This document shows positions 25,198 through 41,091 of a stretch of DNA of 42,473 nucleotides, one piece after another. A program made the translations under genes and the position numbers. Source of the DNA: Flavobacteriales bacterium (GTDB lineage Bacteria; Bacteroidota; Bacteroidia; Flavobacteriales_C; GCA-002722245); assembly GCA_947444925.1 (NCBI GenBank), contig CANFBW010000026.1:1-42473 (forward strand), in the 5' to 3' direction. The notes beneath the pieces are model-generated. The model had not been told where the DNA came from. It saw nothing but the letters and a program-made list of their open reading frames with translations, and did not search any database. Each line of letters opens with the position of its first letter. Within the stretch, counting starts at the first letter, position 1.

Positions 25198-27762
25198 ATG
25201 TTTTTTAAGAAAAAAATAGAACCCATCATAGAGGAGCCTGAAACAGGGAACACTCTAAAAAAAGGAAAGCAAAAGGACGCCGAAAAAGAAGGCAAACCTA
25301 AAAGCGGCGCTACCATAAAAAGCAGTCTGCCTGAAGAAGCAACTACTGAAAGCAAACCAAATGCATTTGTGGAATTTCTAAAAAGAGAAAAAACAAAAAA
25401 CATCGTCGGATTAACCTTTTTATTGAGTTCGCTTTATCTTTTCATCGCTTTTACGTCCTACCTCTTTACTTGGCAAGAAGACCAAGATAAGGTGATTGGC
25501 TCATGGTGGACTTTACTTAGCGACAGCAGCATAGTTGTAAACAATTGGTTAGGTAAGTTGGGCGCAATTGTTTCTCACGTATTTTTCTACCGATGGTTTG
25601 GCGTGGTCTCCTTTGTTTTTGCTTTTTTACTTGCCCTGTATGGGATTCGATTGTTTTTCAAAAAAAACATATTCCCCCTCAAAAGAACGACCACTATTGG
25701 AATGATTGCTTTTGTTTGGACTTCCATTGCATTAGGATTCGCTTTTCAAACATCGCATTTCGCTCCTGGAGGTGCTTTTGGCTATCAAAGCACTTTATGG
25801 CTGCAAGGAATTTTAGGCAAGTCGGGAACTGGATTTTTGATTCTATTCTTTTTATTAGCCATTCTCGTGCTAAACTTCAACTTTAGCATGAATCAAGTTT
25901 ACGCCCATTTAAAAAAAGAAGATACTATTGACACTGAACCTTTGGCAGAATCACCTATTGTTGAAGCAAAAAAAGAAATACTTCCAGAAGTAGAATTCAT
26001 CGCAGAAACTCCCATCTTTATTCCACCCGACTTAAGGGAGGTAAAAAAAGAAGTGCCACCCACTCCACCCGCTCCTGTTGTGATAGAAGTAGAACCGGTA
26101 TTTGAAGACAATGATGTATTTGCCAGCATTGAAAAAACAGGTGAAGTTGAATTCAAGGTTGAAACACCACGAGTTCAAGAAGAAATTCTATCACAAGAAG
26201 AAATCAACAGCATGGTTCAGAAGTACGGCGAATACGATCCTACTTTAGATCTTAGCTCCTACACTTTCCCCGGAATTGATCTGCTAAAGGATTATGGAGA
26301 CAGAGGAAACACCGTAGAACAAGAAGAATTAGAATCCAACAAAAACAGAATTGTTGCCACATTAAAAAACTACAATATTGAGATTTCTCAAATCAAGGCA
26401 GCCATCGGACCAACTGTTACCTTGTACGAAATCATACCTGCTCCGGGGGTTAGAATATCTAAAATCAAAAATCTCGAAGACGATATTGCATTAAGCTTAT
26501 CGGCATTCGGCATTCGCATCATTGCGCCAATTCCGGGAAAAGGAACCATAGGCATCGAGGTTCCCAATCAAAAACCCGACGTGGTGTCAATGCGCACAGT
26601 TATTGCCTCTAAAGTATTTCAAGATTCAAGTATGGAATTGCCCATCGTTTTAGGCAAAACAATATCAAATGAAATTTTCGTCACCGACTTAGCAAAAATG
26701 CCACATTTATTAATGGCTGGTGCAACGGGACAAGGAAAATCTGTTGGATTAAATGCTATTTTGGTTTCTTTATTGTACAAAAAACATCCTTCACAACTGA
26801 AACTGGTGTTGGTTGACCCTAAAAAGGTGGAGCTTACTTTATACAACAAACTGGTGCGTCACTTTTTAGCCAAATTGCCCGATGGCGAAGAAGCAATTAT
26901 CACCGACACTAAAAAAGTGGTGAACACTGTGAATTCGTTGTGCATTGAAATGGATACGCGCTACGAACTTCTTAAAATAGCGCAATGCCGAAATATAAAG
27001 GAGTACAACACCAAATTTGTTGCCCGCAAACTGAATCCCGAAAATGGACACAAATATTTGCCTTACATTGTTTTAGTCATCGACGAGTTCGCCGATTTAA
27101 TCATGACTGCCGGTAAAGAAATTGAAACACCAATCGCTCGTTTGGCGCAATTGGCCAGAGCCATAGGAATTCACTTGATTGTAGCGACGCAGCGTCCGTC
27201 AGTAAACATTATTACGGGAACCATTAAAGCAAATTTCCCGGCGCGAATTGCTTTTAAAGTCACGTCTAAAATCGACTCTCGTACCATCCTCGATGCAGGT
27301 GGCGCTGATCAATTGATCGGACGTGGTGACATGCTTTTGTCGACAGGCAATGAACTACTGCGTATACAATGTGCTTTTGTTGACACTCCTGAAGTCGAAG
27401 ATATTTGCGATTTTATTGGTGAGCAAAGAGGTTATGCAACCGCGTTCTTACTCCCTGAGTACAATGACCCTGACGCATCTAGCGGTCACGAAGACCTCAA
27501 TCCTGACGACCGCGACGCCTTGTTCAATGAAGCCGCACGCTTAGTAGTAACGCACCAGCAAGGTTCAGCCTCATTACTGCAACGTCGATTGAAATTAGGA
27601 TACAACAGAGCGGGACGAATTGTTGACCAACTTGAAGCAGCTGGAATTATCGGTCCTTTTGAAGGATCAAAAGCACGACAAGTTTTATATCCCGACGAAC
27701 ACAGTTTGGACCAATTTTTGAATGCCAACAAAAACAACAACAACGAAGCATCTCCATTTTAA
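25198..27762 (+). CDS. ftsK: DNA translocase FtsK
   Basis: Divisome-associated hexameric DNA pump that clears and resolves chromosome ends during division. The 854 residues start with a basic, charged tail (1-60), then about four membrane helices (66-230). An acidic, Pro/Glu-rich linker runs from about 235 to 340. The motor follows, with Walker A GATGQGKS at 508-515 and Walker B VIDEFADLI (D629, E630). The C-terminal winged-helix gamma domain (GSASLLQRRLKLGYNRAGRIV) reads KOPS-like sites. The linker is far shorter than in E. coli FtsK. lolA follows after 7 nt. Confidence 0.97.
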   Translation: MFFKKKIEPIIEEPETGNTLKKGKQKDAEKEGKPKSGATIKSSLPEEATTESKPNAFVEFLKREKTKNIVGLTFLLSSLYLFIAFTSYLFTWQEDQDKVIGSWWTLLSDSSIVVNNWLGKLGAIVSHVFFYRWFGVVSFVFAFLLALYGIRLFFKKNIFPLKRTTTIGMIAFVWTSIALGFAFQTSHFAPGGAFGYQSTLWLQGILGKSGTGFLILFFLLAILVLNFNFSMNQVYAHLKKEDTIDTEPLAESPIVEAKKEILPEVEFIAETPIFIPPDLREVKKEVPPTPPAPVVIEVEPVFEDNDVFASIEKTGEVEFKVETPRVQEEILSQEEINSMVQKYGEYDPTLDLSSYTFPGIDLLKDYGDRGNTVEQEELESNKNRIVATLKNYNIEISQIKAAIGPTVTLYEIIPAPGVRISKIKNLEDDIALSLSAFGIRIIAPIPGKGTIGIEVPNQKPDVVSMRTVIASKVFQDSSMELPIVLGKTISNEIFVTDLAKMPHLLMAGATGQGKSVGLNAILVSLLYKKHPSQLKLVLVDPKKVELTLYNKLVRHFLAKLPDGEEAIITDTKKVVNTVNSLCIEMDTRYELLKIAQCRNIKEYNTKFVARKLNPENGHKYLPYIVLVIDEFADLIMTAGKEIETPIARLAQLARAIGIHLIVATQRPSVNIITGTIKANFPARIAFKVTSKIDSRTILDAGGADQLIGRGDMLLSTGNELLRIQCAFVDTPEVEDICDFIGEQRGYATAFLLPEYNDPDASSGHEDLNPDDRDALFNEAARLVVTHQQGSASLLQRRLKLGYNRAGRIVDQLEAAGIIGPFEGSKARQVLYPDEHSLDQFLNANKNNNNEASPF

Positions 27763-33050: not shown

Positions 33051-33341
33051 TCATTCAATTACTGCGCTCAACCCTTTGTCCACCAAGCCTTCACACATAA
33101 TACGCAAATCATCGTACTCACCTCTCTTCACGCCGCATTTTCCTTTGTAGTGAATCAAAATACTGCACTGTTCGGCTTGCACTGCATCGTGTCCACAAAT
33201 ATCCATTAAGCAGGCAATCACATGGTCGAAGGTATTCACGTCATCATTGTACACAATTAAATCGTGCATCGGCACTTCTTCCTCTAATACATCACTATCG
33301 AAGTGTTCTTTGGTGGATCTATCAGGTCGATTAAAACGCAT
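33051..33341 (-). CDS. clpS: ATP-dependent Clp protease adaptor ClpS
   Basis: A 96-residue N-degron adaptor that delivers proteins with destabilising N-termini to ClpAP/ClpCP. Hallmarks are HDLIVYNDDVNTFDHVI, which lines the N-end binding pocket, EQCSILIHYKGKCGVKRG, and the C-terminal LVDKGLSAVIE. It starts 2 nt after the giant envelope gene and is probably on its transcript, an unusual partner. No clpA or clpC is in the window. Confidence 0.94.
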   Translation of the reverse strand: MRFNRPDRSTKEHFDSDVLEEEVPMHDLIVYNDDVNTFDHVIACLMDICGHDAVQAEQCSILIHYKGKCGVKRGEYDDLRIMCEGLVDKGLSAVIE

Positions 33342-33343
33342 AC

Positions 33344-36300
33344 TTATTTCTTAATCAATTGTAAAGCTTTGTCCATGCTTATTTTTTCATTGCCATTGTA
33401 AACCACCAAAAATGCATCTGTCAAACCAACAGCAAAAGCTTGCTCTTTCATTTTTCGCGCTTCCTCTAAGGAGCTATAAGCACCTACCGTAAAGACCGTC
33501 ACGCCATCTGCATCTTTCACGTAATCTACTTTAGTTGGTAATTTCAAAAACAAAGTAGTTGTTTCAACTGGCACTTCATTTCGATAGGCCCCAACTTGCA
33601 CTTTAAATACAATGTTGGCAACTGGAGTAGATGCAATGACCTTGCCTTCAGATACATTAGCTCCAGAAATATTTTGAGCATCAGAAGCTGAAATTCTTTG
33701 ACCATTTTTATATGCCGTTATAAAAGCATCTTTGATCCCTGCGTTATTTACTTCACCTTTTCGCACTGTAGCATCACCAAATGTTTTATACTTCCCTGTA
33801 CTGTATCTAAATAGTCCATTGCTCGTTTTTTCAAAATTTAATGGCTGTAAATCGAAAGCAGATCCTTTTTGTACTTCCTTTGAAATCACGCAAATTTGAA
33901 CTGTATAAAACACATCTTCATTTGTTTTTACTTCTGCACTTGTAGCACCATTGCCAATTGTATTTTGTGCAAGCACAGCCCCCACTTTAACTTCAACTTT
34001 TGAGATGGCATCAACCTCCTTCGCTTCAATAGCCTGAAGCGCCTTTTGCTCTATCTGTGGAGCCTTCGCTGTAATTTGATTTGCCTGCTCAACCGACACC
34101 CTTTGTCCATTGTAAAAAGGGACTACAAATGCATCAACATATCCCATCTGACGAATTTTGTCACGAGCAATGGCCGCTGCTTTGAAAGATCTGAAAATAC
34201 CCGCTGAATATCGAACGAATCCCAACTTGGTTTGTTCGCCAAACAAAGGTGAAATACCTTTGAATAAATCTTGTGGAATTGGATTTTTAAATGCGCCCAC
34301 TTGAACGGTATACACCAATCCTTCTGGCATTTTATTGTCGATTGGAATAGGATTATTGGCGCTATAAACCACATTGGTTTTGATTTCAAACTGATCTTTC
34401 ACTGTTGCATCTTGTAAGGCAGTAGCGCTCGTTCCAAAAATCTGCGCTTTATCAACATCTACTTTTACAATACTCTTGTCGTCGCCCTTGATTGCGCTAT
34501 GTGGCCCAACAGCATCATTTTTCACTAAGCCATTCACTGCCGCTTTTGTACTCAATACCTCTTTCTGTGTTTTCTCTTTGTATTCGGCAAATACATCTGT
34601 TTTCTTATTGTCGTCAACAGCTTTTTTCTTAACCTCCTGGGCCACTTGTGGAGCCAAACTCTCCATGTACAATTGTGCTTCCCTTCTTTTCGACTGCGCC
34701 TCCATTCTCGCATTGTCAATAAGTTGTGACGACTGCAAAGCCTTATCCTCTTTCTGATCTGCCAACTTTTTGAGCTGAGTCGATTCCGCCAAAAGCTTTT
34801 GAACATCGGCTTCATTTGTTTTGCTATCAGCTTGTGAAAGCACATTCTCCGATTGCAGTTGATACCCCTTAGACTCTTTTTTCAATTGAGTATAATTCTC
34901 AACTTCTTTGGCAATTTCTTTTTCCGCTTTCTTCGCTTCTTCTAACATAACATTGTATTGCTGCAATGCTATGTCAGGTTTTACCGCGGCTATAACTTTG
35001 TTTTGCGAAGCGGCATCATTCGTTGCAGCAGAAGCGCCATTTGTTTTGTCAGACGCTTTATTTTTAGCAACTGCTACTGTTTTTGGATCAATTGATTTTT
35101 GCTTCACTAAAGCCAAACTATCCATTGTTTTTTTAGCATTAACTACAACTGGATTAGTGCTCTTAGGATCAACAACTTTGGTTTTTGCAGTGTTGCTAGA
35201 ATCAGCAGCAGCTCTATTTTCAGCAATCACAACCGTGCTTTCGTCTTTTTTAGCACCTTTTGTTTTTGCATTAACCGCTACAACTGCCGTATCTGCTACT
35301 GCTTTCACTTTAAAATATTTACTTGGATTCGCTTTAACATCCATCATCTTCTCTTGATGCTCTATGGCCTTCTTTTCTAAATCAACCGCTCTAAGAGTAG
35401 CATTGTGCGCAAGCACAGCATCAGTAGCATTGCTGGCTTCCGCCTTTGCAACAGCAGATTTTTTCATCAATGCATCTGCCTCATTTTGCAACGTCTTAAT
35501 GAGTGCAAGTTGCTGTGGATCTAACTTTTCATTTTTATATCCTTCTACCATTTTTGCATTGGCATCAAAATTTGCTTGCTCGGTGCTCAACTCTTTACTC
35601 AATGCTTCGTTCTTTACTTTATCAGAGGCTATTGTGTATGCCAACGACTGCTCCAAAAGAATTTTCTTCTTTGCTGGATTCTTTTCAACATCGGCTTGAG
35701 CGAGCAAATCAGCCGCTTTCCTTTGACCAGCAGAATCCATCGGACTCAATTTTGCTGCGGCTATTGCTTTTGCCTCCGCTACTTTTTGCTGGTCAGCTAT
35801 TTTTTGTCGCTCTGTTGCAGCCAAAATCTCTGCTGCTTTTGCCTTTTCAGCATCTGCATTCAGTATTGTATTTTGCTTTTCAAGTGCACTGGTCTCCAAA
35901 TCGTAAGCGTCATTATACATGGACGTTTGTGTAATTACCGATTTGGTTTTTTTGGCTTTTTCTCGTATTTTTTTTGCCTCTATAAATTGATCTTCAGCCT
36001 CTTTGATTTCGGCTTTTTGCGCCTCGTCAATAGTGAGTTTTTTCTTAATGAAAGCTTGCTTAATTTTGTTTTTGTTGACCTCATTTTCTTTTTCGTGCAA
36101 CTCACCAGTTTTCACCAAAGCCTCTCTTTGCTTCATACGGCCCAAGCGCTTTAATTTCAAGGCCTGCTTCCTGAATTTCTTTGCCTCTGATTTTTTTGCA
36201 GTCTCCGCTTTGCTTTCCAAAGCCATCGCCTGTTCATATTTTACAACAGCCGAATCTTCAAGCTGAGCAATTTCCTTCACAACTGTTTGAACCGCTATAT

Positions 36301-39300
36301 CCTCACTGAAATGATAATTTGAATTTTTATTGACGCCGTAAGCCTCGCTCAAAGTATTTAGCTTGCACTGCTGCAACTGCGCTGCGCTTTTAGGCTCCGT
36401 TGGAAGCACAGCTGTTGTAGCACTATTTTTCACGATAACACTATCCCCTTTAGATTTATTCACTACCGCATACCCCCCCTTGTTTTTTGCCCCCATCTCA
36501 GCTTTCAATACTGCCAAGTCTTTTACTTGCAACAGCAAAACTTGTTGTGTTTTAAGCAATTCCAACTCACGTTTGTACGCATCGTTTATATACGTCACTT
36601 TCTCTCTAAAATCTTTAGTCTGCTTGGCTTTTTCTCTGCTAAGCAAAGTAGAAATCCACGTATTTCCGATATCCGTTAACTCTTTGGCTTTTACCTCTAA
36701 TTTTTTTTGTGAGACAGCCTGTTTTAGCAATGCATTATTGTTATCGTATTCAGCGCGGTTTGCGTAAAAATAGTTTTCCGATGCTTGTAACTGCTTCAAC
36801 TGAGATTCTTCATCTAAGTCAAGTGATGCTTTCGCCAACTTCTTTTTATCGCCTTTATTTACTGTTGCATCAGCAGCATCACGTTTGGATTTTGCATCGA
36901 TGTAAAGTTGTAAGGCCACGTTTTCAGCAGCTCGAGCATTTTTAATATTTGCAAGCACAACAAAATCAGATCCATAAACGAAACTTGGATCAGTTTTAAT
37001 TCCGAATGCATTAAAAGCTGCAAGAGACAATTCTTCTTCCGTGGCTTTTTCTGGCACAAAGTCAACCTTTAAATTACTAGATCGCTGCAATGCAGTATTT
37101 CCAAGTATTGGATCCACTTTTGCAAGTGCAGTGGTATCTGTGTTTGTTTGCTTATTTTGTTTGCCTTTCCCTTTGGTCACCGCCTCCTCCTTCTCACTTC
37201 CTTTTTTTCCAAAAGCTTCTATTGCCTGCAAATCTTTTTCATTGTTTTTGTTAGGATTTACAGCCAATTGTTCTGTACTTATTTTGTCCTCTTTTTGTAT
37301 AATGCGCGCTTGATCAACATGCTGGGCTATCTCCAATTTCAATTGTTCTTCATCAAGTTTTTGCGTATTGAGAATCTTCTTTATTTCTTTTTTAACGGAA
37401 GTATCAGCTTGATTTTCAAAAGCCTGTTTCAAATAGACTTGTTCTTCTTTAATTTTAGCGTATTTGTCATACGCGATTTTGGCCTGCGCCATTTCTTCAT
37501 TGTAACGCTCAATTCCTTTCTTCGTCGGAACAGCCTTCACCGCCACATCAGTCCTCGGCGATTTCTTGGTACTATCAGCCACTGCATTCTCTTTTTGTTT
37601 AGACTCTTTTGTTTTTAACGCAAGGGTCTTTTCAGCTTTCTTAATGCTGTCTGCCTTTACAATTTCTTTTTGCTTAGCCTCTTTCGTTTGTAACAAAAGT
37701 TCCTTCTCTGCTTTTTTTGTGCTATCAGCTAAGGCAACATCGTTGCTTTTTTGTTTTGTTTCGCTAGTCTTCAGCTGGTCTACTTTCTTTATCGGTTCAA
37801 CAGAGCGAACCGCGAGTTCATCCTTTTTCTTTATCTCTACCAATTTTGCGCTGTCAGCTTCAGCTGTCTTCTTCTTTTTTGCTTCCGTCAACTGCGCAAT
37901 ATCTTGCGTTTTCACAATATTCACTTCCTGCTGCAAGTTCTGAATTACCTGGGTATCAGAACTTGGTTCTTCTGTATCCGATTTAATGGCAGCCAACTCG
38001 GCATCGGCAATGGACTTTTCTCCTTGCTTGCGCGCTAATTCCTCCTTTAATTCGTCGATTTGAAGTTTAAACTCCTCTTTGAGTTGCTTGTTTTTAGTGG
38101 CATCCAATTGCTTTTGCAGATTTTTTTGTTCCTCATCCACCTTAACAATTTCAGCTGTCAGTTGATCAATTGCCGCGCTGGTCTTTTTCTCTTCTGCCGC
38201 GCGTGTCAATTTTGTTGCAGTGTAAGCTTCTTCAATACTTGTTGCTCCTGCAGTTTTGTTGCGTTCTTGAATTTGATCCAATTTTATTTTTTGCTGCTCT
38301 AATTTCGCTATTGCATCGTCGGTATTTTTTGCATCACTGGCTTCTTTAATCACTTCAGCATATTGATTGGCTACTGTATATTCCTCCTTTTTGTTTTTCG
38401 CTTCTTGTCTTTTTGCATCTGCATAATGTGCCGTTACCGAAGCCTCTCTTGCTTTTTTTCGCAACAACTTGCCTTTCTGATCAATCTCTAACTGCACCTT
38501 TTCTTTGTCGCCCGCAGCACTTTGATTCAGTTTTTTAGCAAGATCAACCAATTCTTGCTTTTCAACAAGTGCTTCTTCTGCCTTTACCTTCGCAACATAT
38601 TCAGCAGCCTCTGCATCGCTTTGCAGCACAATAAACTCCTTTTCCAACTCTTGCGCATCTTTAAACGCCTCCTGCACCAAATCAGAATTACTCACTTCAG
38701 TCTTCACTTCTCCTACTTTTTCGCTTACTGAATCGTGTTTAGCCAAAGGCTCAATCACCGTTTGAACCGGAATTGGCTTGCTGTTAAAATTTACGTCCTT
38801 ATCAGAATTAACCTGTAAATCAGCACTTTTTTTGTAAAACTGATTGAACGCAACATCGTCGATAGCACTTTGTTTTTGATTCGCAATCAACATTTTCTCT
38901 TGCGGATTTTTATGCAAGTCAATTTTCTGATTGATTACCGGAGCTTCCTTCTTCTCAGGAATATTTACAACATCTTCAAGAGGTTCATATCCACTGGCAA
39001 TTACTTTAAATCCATATTGTTTGCCCGAAGGCAATGTCATTGCATAGGCACCGGTTTTCTCATTGACCTTGTACACACCAACAATCACACCTGTTTCCAT
39101 ATCCGTCACAGTGATTTGAGCAATTTTTTGTTTTGCTGTTTCAATGCTGATTTCACCTTTCACGATGGTGTTGTCTTGGTGCAATTTATTGGGAACGATT
39201 TTGTACACCGTAATCTCGTCCTTCGAACTGGCGCGCGAAGAAGCAAAAAAAGCAACGTCCTCCGTCATATCGGTGATGTACAATATGTCGTCATCAGGAG

Positions 39301-40243
39301 AATTCACTGCAAAACCAACATTAACAGGTGCCTTCCAAAGGTTAGTTACCTCATCTAAATCACTTTTAAAAATGTCATAACCACCAATACTGTTGTGACC
39401 TTTTGAAGCGAAATACAAAAATTTCCCGCTCGGATGCAAGTAAGGGTAATCTTCATCCAAAGCTGTATTGATGAGCGGACCAAGAGTCAAGGGAGTACTC
39501 CAGGTGCCATCAGCAAAATGAACCATTTTGTACAAATCTTTGCCGTTCTCTCCTTTTTCACCATAGCTGGAAAAGTAAACTTCAGAAAGCAATGGATTGT
39601 GCACAATGAGCGAATACTCCTTATTTTTTTTGTCCAGTTTGGTTTTAAATTCATCAGGTTTGACCAATATTTTTCTGTCGAACTCATTGAGTTGATAACC
39701 CCTAAAAAACTCTTGACGATTGATGTCTTTTTTGCTCAAGACATTAATGGATTGAATATCCTGAATCAATACTTTTCCTTCTTCGCACTGCGTAATAAAA
39801 AGCGAAACATCGTTTTCTTGAACAGTTTTACTTTTTGCTTTAATGCGAAAATCTTTATACGCCTTAATGGCTTCTTTGAAATAATAGTTGAGATGATAGG
39901 CGCGCGCCACATAATAAAACGCCATCTCCTCTACACCTGGCTTACTCACAGCAAACTTCAAGAACTTGAGTGCTTCCTCCTTGTCGGAACTAGCATAAAG
40001 TAAGCAAGTGCCGTATTTAAAATTATAATTGGGGTCCTGTGCATGTAAACTCACCAACTGAGAGTAGTAATCGAGCGCCTGCGCATACTGTTTTTGTTCG
40101 AAAAGCTTGTCGGCTTTTTTGATCATCTCTGTTTCTGATTCAAAACCATCTACAAAGGAACATGAGGCCACAACGAAGATTGCAGTCAGCAGCATCTGAA
40201 AGTATTTTTTCAGCAGATGCGGATTCATATAGAAGAATTCCAT
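33344..40243 (-). CDS. Giant lipoprotein: TPR-PD40-regulatory domain, long helical region, three SPOR-like repeats
   Basis: A 2,299-residue envelope protein. A lipoprotein signal ends at VVASC (Cys28; an ATG at 40228 gives a tighter signal). TPR-like helices span about 37-135. PD40/beta-propeller strands span about 215-350 (FLYFASKGHNSIGGYDIF), and a carboxypeptidase-regulatory-like beta domain about 361-443. This trio is that of PorE-type OmpA proteins of type IX secretion. From about 500 to 1970 the chain is Lys/Ala/Glu/Gln-rich, helical and probably coiled coil. Three SPOR-like domains begin at 1977 (VYTVQVGAF), 2112 (FYTVQICVI) and 2212 (VFKVQVGAY). No OmpA domain is present. SPOR domains normally bind glycan strands stripped of peptides. 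Function unknown; a link from outer membrane to peptidoglycan is inferred. Confidence 0.88.
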   Translation of the reverse strand: MEFFYMNPHLLKKYFQMLLTAIFVVASCSFVDGFESETEMIKKADKLFEQKQYAQALDYYSQLVSLHAQDPNYNFKYGTCLLYASSDKEEALKFLKFAVSKPGVEEMAFYYVARAYHLNYYFKEAIKAYKDFRIKAKSKTVQENDVSLFITQCEEGKVLIQDIQSINVLSKKDINRQEFFRGYQLNEFDRKILVKPDEFKTKLDKKNKEYSLIVHNPLLSEVYFSSYGEKGENGKDLYKMVHFADGTWSTPLTLGPLINTALDEDYPYLHPSGKFLYFASKGHNSIGGYDIFKSDLDEVTNLWKAPVNVGFAVNSPDDDILYITDMTEDVAFFASSRASSKDEITVYKIVPNKLHQDNTIVKGEISIETAKQKIAQITVTDMETGVIVGVYKVNEKTGAYAMTLPSGKQYGFKVIASGYEPLEDVVNIPEKKEAPVINQKIDLHKNPQEKMLIANQKQSAIDDVAFNQFYKKSADLQVNSDKDVNFNSKPIPVQTVIEPLAKHDSVSEKVGEVKTEVSNSDLVQEAFKDAQELEKEFIVLQSDAEAAEYVAKVKAEEALVEKQELVDLAKKLNQSAAGDKEKVQLEIDQKGKLLRKKAREASVTAHYADAKRQEAKNKKEEYTVANQYAEVIKEASDAKNTDDAIAKLEQQKIKLDQIQERNKTAGATSIEEAYTATKLTRAAEEKKTSAAIDQLTAEIVKVDEEQKNLQKQLDATKNKQLKEEFKLQIDELKEELARKQGEKSIADAELAAIKSDTEEPSSDTQVIQNLQQEVNIVKTQDIAQLTEAKKKKTAEADSAKLVEIKKKDELAVRSVEPIKKVDQLKTSETKQKSNDVALADSTKKAEKELLLQTKEAKQKEIVKADSIKKAEKTLALKTKESKQKENAVADSTKKSPRTDVAVKAVPTKKGIERYNEEMAQAKIAYDKYAKIKEEQVYLKQAFENQADTSVKKEIKKILNTQKLDEEQLKLEIAQHVDQARIIQKEDKISTEQLAVNPNKNNEKDLQAIEAFGKKGSEKEEAVTKGKGKQNKQTNTDTTALAKVDPILGNTALQRSSNLKVDFVPEKATEEELSLAAFNAFGIKTDPSFVYGSDFVVLANIKNARAAENVALQLYIDAKSKRDAADATVNKGDKKKLAKASLDLDEESQLKQLQASENYFYANRAEYDNNNALLKQAVSQKKLEVKAKELTDIGNTWISTLLSREKAKQTKDFREKVTYINDAYKRELELLKTQQVLLLQVKDLAVLKAEMGAKNKGGYAVVNKSKGDSVIVKNSATTAVLPTEPKSAAQLQQCKLNTLSEAYGVNKNSNYHFSEDIAVQTVVKEIAQLEDSAVVKYEQAMALESKAETAKKSEAKKFRKQALKLKRLGRMKQREALVKTGELHEKENEVNKNKIKQAFIKKKLTIDEAQKAEIKEAEDQFIEAKKIREKAKKTKSVITQTSMYNDAYDLETSALEKQNTILNADAEKAKAAEILAATERQKIADQQKVAEAKAIAAAKLSPMDSAGQRKAADLLAQADVEKNPAKKKILLEQSLAYTIASDKVKNEALSKELSTEQANFDANAKMVEGYKNEKLDPQQLALIKTLQNEADALMKKSAVAKAEASNATDAVLAHNATLRAVDLEKKAIEHQEKMMDVKANPSKYFKVKAVADTAVVAVNAKTKGAKKDESTVVIAENRAAADSSNTAKTKVVDPKSTNPVVVNAKKTMDSLALVKQKSIDPKTVAVAKNKASDKTNGASAATNDAASQNKVIAAVKPDIALQQYNVMLEEAKKAEKEIAKEVENYTQLKKESKGYQLQSENVLSQADSKTNEADVQKLLAESTQLKKLADQKEDKALQSSQLIDNARMEAQSKRREAQLYMESLAPQVAQEVKKKAVDDNKKTDVFAEYKEKTQKEVLSTKAAVNGLVKNDAVGPHSAIKGDDKSIVKVDVDKAQIFGTSATALQDATVKDQFEIKTNVVYSANNPIPIDNKMPEGLVYTVQVGAFKNPIPQDLFKGISPLFGEQTKLGFVRYSAGIFRSFKAAAIARDKIRQMGYVDAFVVPFYNGQRVSVEQANQITAKAPQIEQKALQAIEAKEVDAISKVEVKVGAVLAQNTIGNGATSAEVKTNEDVFYTVQICVISKEVQKGSAFDLQPLNFEKTSNGLFRYSTGKYKTFGDATVRKGEVNNAGIKDAFITAYKNGQRISASDAQNISGANVSEGKVIASTPVANIVFKVQVGAYRNEVPVETTTLFLKLPTKVDYVKDADGVTVFTVGAYSSLEEARKMKEQAFAVGLTDAFLVVYNGNEKISMDKALQLIKK
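37545..37760 (-). repeat. Tandem 25-27-residue repeats in the giant protein
   Basis: Three successive units share K-Q-K, then ADSxKKAEKxL and TKExK. They start with KQKSND, KQKEIV and KQKENA, spaced about 81 and 75 bases apart. They lie in the helical region and indicate recent internal duplication. Confidence 0.7.
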
Positions 40244-40336: not shown

Positions 40337-40969
40337 CTAAACTTTCTTTTTAAAAAGATATGTTTTGTTCTCTACACCTTGCAGCAAGCGCGTAATGTTC
40401 TTTTGATGTGTTACTAAAACCAACACTGCAATGATCGCTGAAAAAAGCTTCAAAGAGTCAGCTTCGGTCTTAAACACAAAATTCACGAAAATTGGAAACG
40501 CAATACCCGCCAACATTGACCCCAGCGAAACATACTTACTCACAATGAGCACAAGTAAAAACACAAGCAAGGAGGCCATTGCTGCAACTGGCAAAATAGC
40601 GAAGATGATACCCAATAGTGTTGCAATTCCTTTACCACCTCGAAAGGCAGCAAAAACCGGAAATATATGTCCTAACAATGCGGCAATACCAAAAGCCAAT
40701 TGCAAGTTGATGTACGGAATTGAATCAATAGGATAATTGCCCTGAAAAAAAACCAATTTAACGGCAAAAAAACCTTTCAACACATCAATAAGTAAAACTG
40801 GAATGCCTGCTCTTTTTCCGAGCACCCGAAAGGTGTTGGTTGCACCAGCATTTCCTGAACCATATTCGCGTACGTCAATACCATAGAAATACTTGCCAAT
40901 CCATACTGCTGTTGGAATAGACCCTACTAAATATGCTCCAAGAAGTAAAACAATATTGATAAAAGTCAT
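40337..40969 (-). CDS. plsY: Glycerol-3-phosphate acyltransferase PlsY
   Basis: Inner-membrane enzyme that acylates glycerol-3-phosphate from acyl-phosphate, the first step of phospholipid synthesis. The 210 residues form about five membrane helices. The three catalytic loops are visible: GSIPTAVWIGKYFYGIDVREYGSGNAGATNTFR, GHIFPVFAAFRGGKGIAT and a third loop near YVSLGSMLAG. The frame stays open to 41044, but the ATG at 40969 gives the standard N-terminus. A -7 element lies 3 nt upstream. Confidence 0.94.
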   Translation of the reverse strand: MTFINIVLLLGAYLVGSIPTAVWIGKYFYGIDVREYGSGNAGATNTFRVLGKRAGIPVLLIDVLKGFFAVKLVFFQGNYPIDSIPYINLQLAFGIAALLGHIFPVFAAFRGGKGIATLLGIIFAILPVAAMASLLVFLLVLIVSKYVSLGSMLAGIAFPIFVNFVFKTEADSLKLFSAIIAVLVLVTHQKNITRLLQGVENKTYLFKKKV

Positions 40970-40972
40970 TCC

Positions 40973-40980
40973 CAAATTTA
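40973..40980 (-). promoter_or_regulatory. -7 promoter element of plsY, abutting the start codon
   Basis: TAAATTTG on the minus strand matches TAnnTTTG and ends 3 nt before the ATG at 40969. A TTG lies 16 nt further upstream. A transcript from it would have essentially no leader. Confidence 0.45.
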
Positions 40981-41091
40981 AGTGCGGCAAGGTAGTCAAT
41001 AACGCCAAGTATTCAAACACTAGCGCTTCTAAAAAAATCAACAATTGAACTGTTGAAAAAGTTAAATCACCTATCGATAATGAATAGGCAT

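Follow-up and report, generated by a model that had tools for sequence, protein, structure and literature searches.

A giant SPOR-tailed protein with a PorE-type head: a candidate periplasmic tether of Bacteroidia

The locus and its neighbours

The window, i.e., the whole 42,473-nucleotide stretch of DNA that was analysed, carries the gene of a giant protein (hereafter the giant) between plsY and a clpS-like gene (Table 1). The true start is probably Met6, at position 40228, where orthologs, such as that at L037, begin. The order of domains is as follows: a signal peptide, a TPR domain, a PD40 propeller, a carboxypeptidase-regulatory-like domain (CRD), a mostly helical middle of ~1,400 residues, and three SPOR domains. 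Pfam scores SPOR at 28.5 bits (cut-off 21, with two stretches above it) and PD40 at 23.5 bits (cut-off 20.9), the TPR and CarbopepD_reg matches are under the cut-off, and no OmpA domain is matched. The protein was modelled with AlphaFold in two parts, residues 34–1190 (mean pLDDT 79.6) and 1125–2299 (mean pLDDT 79.3). The models place TPR helices at residues 37–162, the strands of the propeller and CRD at 167–457, helices at 519–1897, and SPOR-like domains at each of the three tail positions. Because their pTM is low (0.35–0.46), the mutual placement of the domains is not readable from the models.

Table 1. Features of the giant gene and its immediate neighbours, in window coordinates.
Feature	Coordinates	Strand	Residues	Remarks
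clpS-like gene	33051..33341	(-)		Starts 2 bases past the stop of the giant; conserved downstream neighbour in the class; named from sequence, not HMM
Giant protein CDS	33344..40243	(-)	2,299 codons/aa	One ORF; likely start Met6
SPOR3	33350..33613	(-)	2211-2298	Gln2216 in 29/37; basic residue mostly Ile/Val
SPOR2	33659..33910	(-)	2112-2195	Gln2116 invariant; Arg2146 R/K in 37/37
SPOR1	34064..34318	(-)	1976-2060	Glycan-contact-equivalent Gln1981 and Arg2011 invariant
Helical-hairpin spacer with disordered linkers	34553..38689	(-)	519-1897	Fast-varying in sequence and length among homologs
CRD	38873..39172	(-)	358-457	Sub-threshold Pfam; hhalign; model strands
PD40-type beta-propeller region	39194..39745	(-)	167-350	Pfam PD40; hhalign to PorE-like alignment
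TPR domain	39758..40135	(-)	37-162	AlphaFold helices; Foldseek; PDB profile matches to TPR proteins
N-terminal signal peptide	40145..40228	(-)		Holds Cys28 in lipobox-like VASC, unconserved
plsY (glycerol-3-phosphate acyltransferase)	40337..41044	(-)		Conserved upstream neighbour

The usual gene order is tpiA, prmA, a gene for a ~1,500-residue secreted protein, plsY, the giant, clpS, and a gene for an M48-like lipoprotein. Over 44 loci the respective neighbours were counted 16 (tpiA), 20 (prmA), 22 (the ~1,500-residue protein), 20 (plsY), 25 (clpS), and 18 (M48-like lipoprotein) times, some of them being named by sequence, without an HMM search. An earlier note on this DNA had proposed searching related genomes for the same architecture together with sprF/porP or gld genes; no porP lies beside the giant in the window, and in the class the usual neighbours are clpS and, often, plsY rather than a PorP gene.

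The ~1,500-residue protein encoded between prmA and plsY (G000:C17:5414-9994, i.e., L142:1412-6004; L081:1784-6235; L083:14241-18731) has a beta-strand-like sequence pattern and lies beside the giant in many genomes. It has no Pfam, NCBIfam, or PDB match. A functional pairing with the giant was considered and rejected: the protein occurs in 74 of the 80 class genomes tested, whether the giant is present or absent, and is therefore not giant-specific. It is an undescribed, near-universal protein in its own right. The window also holds an FtsK DNA translocase gene (25198-27762), ~5.6 kb from the giant; it is likewise nearby in the close relative L037.

The head and the export signal

PorE (PG1058/PGN_1296), a wall-anchoring lipoprotein of the type IX secretion system (T9SS), has a four-domain layout (PMC5053529) and bridges the wall and PorP, to which its binding has been published (PMC9143113). 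A structure of OmpA with peptidoglycan is also available (PMC7192894). By profile comparison, the head of the giant is homologous to PorE-type proteins along its whole length. That is, hhalign matched the window family to a profile of twelve PorE-like proteins from the same order with a probability of 100% (E=8.5e-61) across TPR, propeller, and CRD, and the alignment runs up to the start of the OmpA domain in PorE and no further. Neither a Pfam match nor an OmpA motif was found in the giant. The PorE-like head and the missing OmpA domain, both claimed in the earlier note, are thus borne out. In Foldseek, the TPR domain aligned with the CHIP TPR at TMt 0.72–0.78, the top TPR target reaching 0.85, and the propeller was not among the top 50 rows of the whole-model search. 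The propeller is ~90 columns shorter than that of PorE, and therefore PorP binding may not carry over.

The giant is a relative of PorE by its head, yet it is not a PorE. The NCBIfam PorE model matches with E 6.9e-22 but at 74–78 bits, far below the curated cut-off of 600 bits. Both proteins end in a peptidoglycan-binding module, with the binding of the giant predicted; the giant differs in lacking an OmpA_C domain, a conserved lipobox, and an adjacent porP, in having the long helical spacer, three SPOR domains, and the shorter propeller, and in belonging to a separate clade of the propeller tree (see below). The CHU_0125-type OmpA-like (Pal-like) protein of Cytophaga hutchinsonii is a second point of comparison. 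Its PD40 region is matched at 3e-23, but the 82 bits lie far below the cut-off of 620, and the giant differs from it in size and in having no OmpA domain.

The lipobox in the earlier note's layout does not survive comparison with relatives. VVASC, which contains Cys28, is compatible with a lipobox, yet this Cys is peculiar to the window species: genus and family orthologs lack the Cys, no other class member convincingly keeps one, and the orthologs have ordinary Sec-type signal peptides. A lipoprotein reading of the giant was rejected on this ground. PorE is an outer-membrane lipoprotein, from which the giant differs by its family-wide ordinary signal peptides, although this is a weak distinction, as several PorE-like paralogs also lack a lipobox and the F. 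johnsoniae homologs of PorE are not lipoproteins (PMC7192894). Most likely, the giant is soluble in the periplasm and anchored via both ends.

The helical middle and the SPOR tail

In the AlphaFold models the middle contains 31 helices, the longest of 63 residues, and 1,013 of its 1,456 residues are helical. The helices, none longer than ~9.5 nm, are mostly paired as hairpins, with several disordered linkers between them. The hydrophobic period is ~3.5, i.e., heptad-like. The earlier note had described a helical region of ~1,500 residues that, as one straight coiled coil, would exceed 200 nm. The mostly helical character stands, but the short hairpin helices and disordered linkers led us to reject a single continuous coiled coil, and the length calculated for it is unsupported. 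Conservation is lowest in the middle; most of its segments in the window protein match only four or five of 48 relatives, and spacer length among homologs ranges from 698 to 1,788 residues. Searches with individual segments for internal repeats gave weak cross-matches and nothing more.

The three C-terminal SPOR domains proposed in the earlier note are supported: Pfam recognises SPOR in two stretches, and both PDB profile and Foldseek searches led to the same structure. A profile of the last 325 residues matched the CwlC SPOR domain (E=0.0043). The same domain, 1x60, was the first Foldseek match of the C-terminal model (TMt 0.71), with E=0.1 for a query consisting of the whole 1,175-residue model. 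In the homolog at L081, Pfam scores a SPOR domain at 33.6 bits against the cut-off of 21. SPOR domains bind amidase-stripped glycan, which is enriched at septa, and RlpA Gln270 and Arg309, equivalent to FtsN Q251 and R285, act in the binding of denuded glycan (PMC6895207). In SPOR1 and SPOR2 the glycan-contact Gln and basic residue are kept in 37 of 37 aligned homologs, the latter as Arg in SPOR1 and Arg or Lys in SPOR2. In the same alignment the basic residue of SPOR3 is lost.

The SPOR fold, and the Gln and basic contact residues of SPOR1 and SPOR2, are shared with FtsN, DamX, DedD, RlpA, and CwlC, from which the giant differs in its head and in carrying SPOR in triplicate. Neither an inner-membrane anchor nor an enzyme domain was found in it. 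The tail profile also matches the SPOR domains of a second SPOR-ended family of the class, of 758–1,515 aa (L138:4478-7735, L139:2913-7457, L140:2312-4585). These proteins also have an OmpA-like layout with SPOR replacing OmpA, but a DUF6089-like outer-membrane barrel (matched in L138 and L139) takes the place of the TPR/propeller head; TSP_3 repeats are found in L139 and L140.

Distribution and proposed role

The architecture is not a chance product or the oddity of one species, as it recurs in 48 full-length homologs. Within the small order of the window, 8 of the 9 other genomes sampled have orthologs with open frames of 1,600–2,465 residues. Across 396 class genomes the tail profile gave matches in 239 at E<=1e-10, other SPOR proteins included; a count of best E-values puts giant-type tail scores in at least ~125 of the 396, in about 27 families. 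By tail score, then, about a third of the sampled class genomes would carry the giant. In all 40 loci sampled the protein, of 1,423–2,582 residues, has the head, the long middle, and the SPOR tail. In the propeller tree a 100/100 branch separates the 48 giants from 33 PorE-like rows, the latter solely from the window's own order. Inheritance is vertical and near single-copy. The earlier note knew of no described system with this arrangement. Our search of the openly licensed literature likewise returned no description of the giant, which is a member of an undescribed protein family; what the note had missed is a class-wide clade with a neighbourhood of its own (plsY, clpS) and no adjacent porP.

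Among genomes scored giant-negative, G012 and G018 alone have a full head. Their proteins (L146:1475-5020, 1,182 aa; L147:1881-6617, 1,579 aa) have a C-terminus without detectable SPOR, and a clpS-like gene comes after them as usual. Here the tail has apparently degenerated or been replaced.

At the level of sequence, the giant consists of an export signal, a PorE-homologous head, a long modular spacer, two SPOR domains that keep the contact residues, and a third lacking one. This architecture is well supported. Its partner, location, and role we infer as follows, a mechanism to which we give an even chance. The giant is proposed to be a PorE-derived periplasmic tether. The head would bind an outer-membrane complex from the periplasm, in the way that PorE binds PorP, and the SPOR tail would grip peptide-free glycan strands, the product of amidases at division sites, with the flexible string of hairpins linking the two across a variable distance. 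Thus the giant would retain the bridge layout of PorE but read another feature of the wall. Rather than being a fixed T9SS anchor, it may attach an outer-membrane assembly to the septal or young wall, or draw it there, during constriction. Several observations speak against the tether: no porP is adjacent, and the conserved neighbours (plsY, clpS, the M48-like lipoprotein) are housekeeping or generic genes that point to no partner; the propeller is shorter than that of PorE; SPOR3 is altered; and L146 and L147 end without detectable SPOR.

Alternatively, the giant may belong to the T9SS or the gliding machinery: as a paralog of PorE in which SPOR domains stand in for OmpA, it would fix a PorP/SprF-type barrel, together with the adhesin of that barrel, to the wall. 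Such a role, consistent with the homology of the head and the published PorE–PorP binding (PMC9143113), seems rather unlikely to us. In the window genome (G000, 3.2 Mb), 15 matches to the PorP/SprF family were counted, along with about ten PorE-like proteins, and several of the PorP matches have no adjacent PorE-like gene; however, several PorE-like genes of this genome do adjoin a PorP match, unlike the giant, and the genome has a canonical PorE (L141), a lipoprotein that retains both the lipobox and OmpA. GldJ is matched strongly in 44 of 44 giant-positive genomes tested versus about 22 of 36 giant-negative ones, although giant-negative counts, here and for the ~1,500-residue protein, are approximate because the negative set included G012 and G018, where a head has a degenerate tail. 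Ancestry is a confounder here, and a functional link cannot be read from the association; G070, whose near-perfect GldJ match (1,053 bits) is the best, lacks the giant. A gliding track is also unlikely, the published track being GldK/GldN-based (PMC12635249).

A regulator of division like FtsN, DedD, or DamX, recruited to the septum by its SPOR domains and there controlling wall synthesis or amidases, would fit the conserved glycan residues of the tail, the vertical, near single-copy inheritance, and the ordinary signal peptide. We consider it improbable, as the giant has no detected inner-membrane helix or FtsN-like segment, carries a PorE-type scaffold as its head, and is missing from most of the sampled class genomes. 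Least probable is a structural filler or track, formed along the wall by polymerisation of the long, heptad-like, charged middle, with the ends as mere caps, given that conservation is lowest in this region, which is built of short hairpin helices interrupted by disordered linkers.

Returning to the tether, a bolder form of the proposal, which we regard as unlikely but worth stating, is that of a widespread and hitherto undescribed septal outer-membrane tether of Bacteroidia, which holds a machine of the outer membrane by its PorE-type head and hauls it, through the three SPOR domains, to septal wall that has just been denuded. If true, this would give Bacteroidota a means of drawing the outer membrane inward at division. 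PorE-type heads are found joined to either of two wall-reading modules, OmpA and SPOR. Proteins like the giant, of ~1,400 to 2,600 residues, appear to be encoded by many Bacteroidia; they link a T9SS-type scaffold to a mark on the wall that usually arises at division. The giant is a concrete candidate for tying outer-membrane machines to the wall in Bacteroidia.
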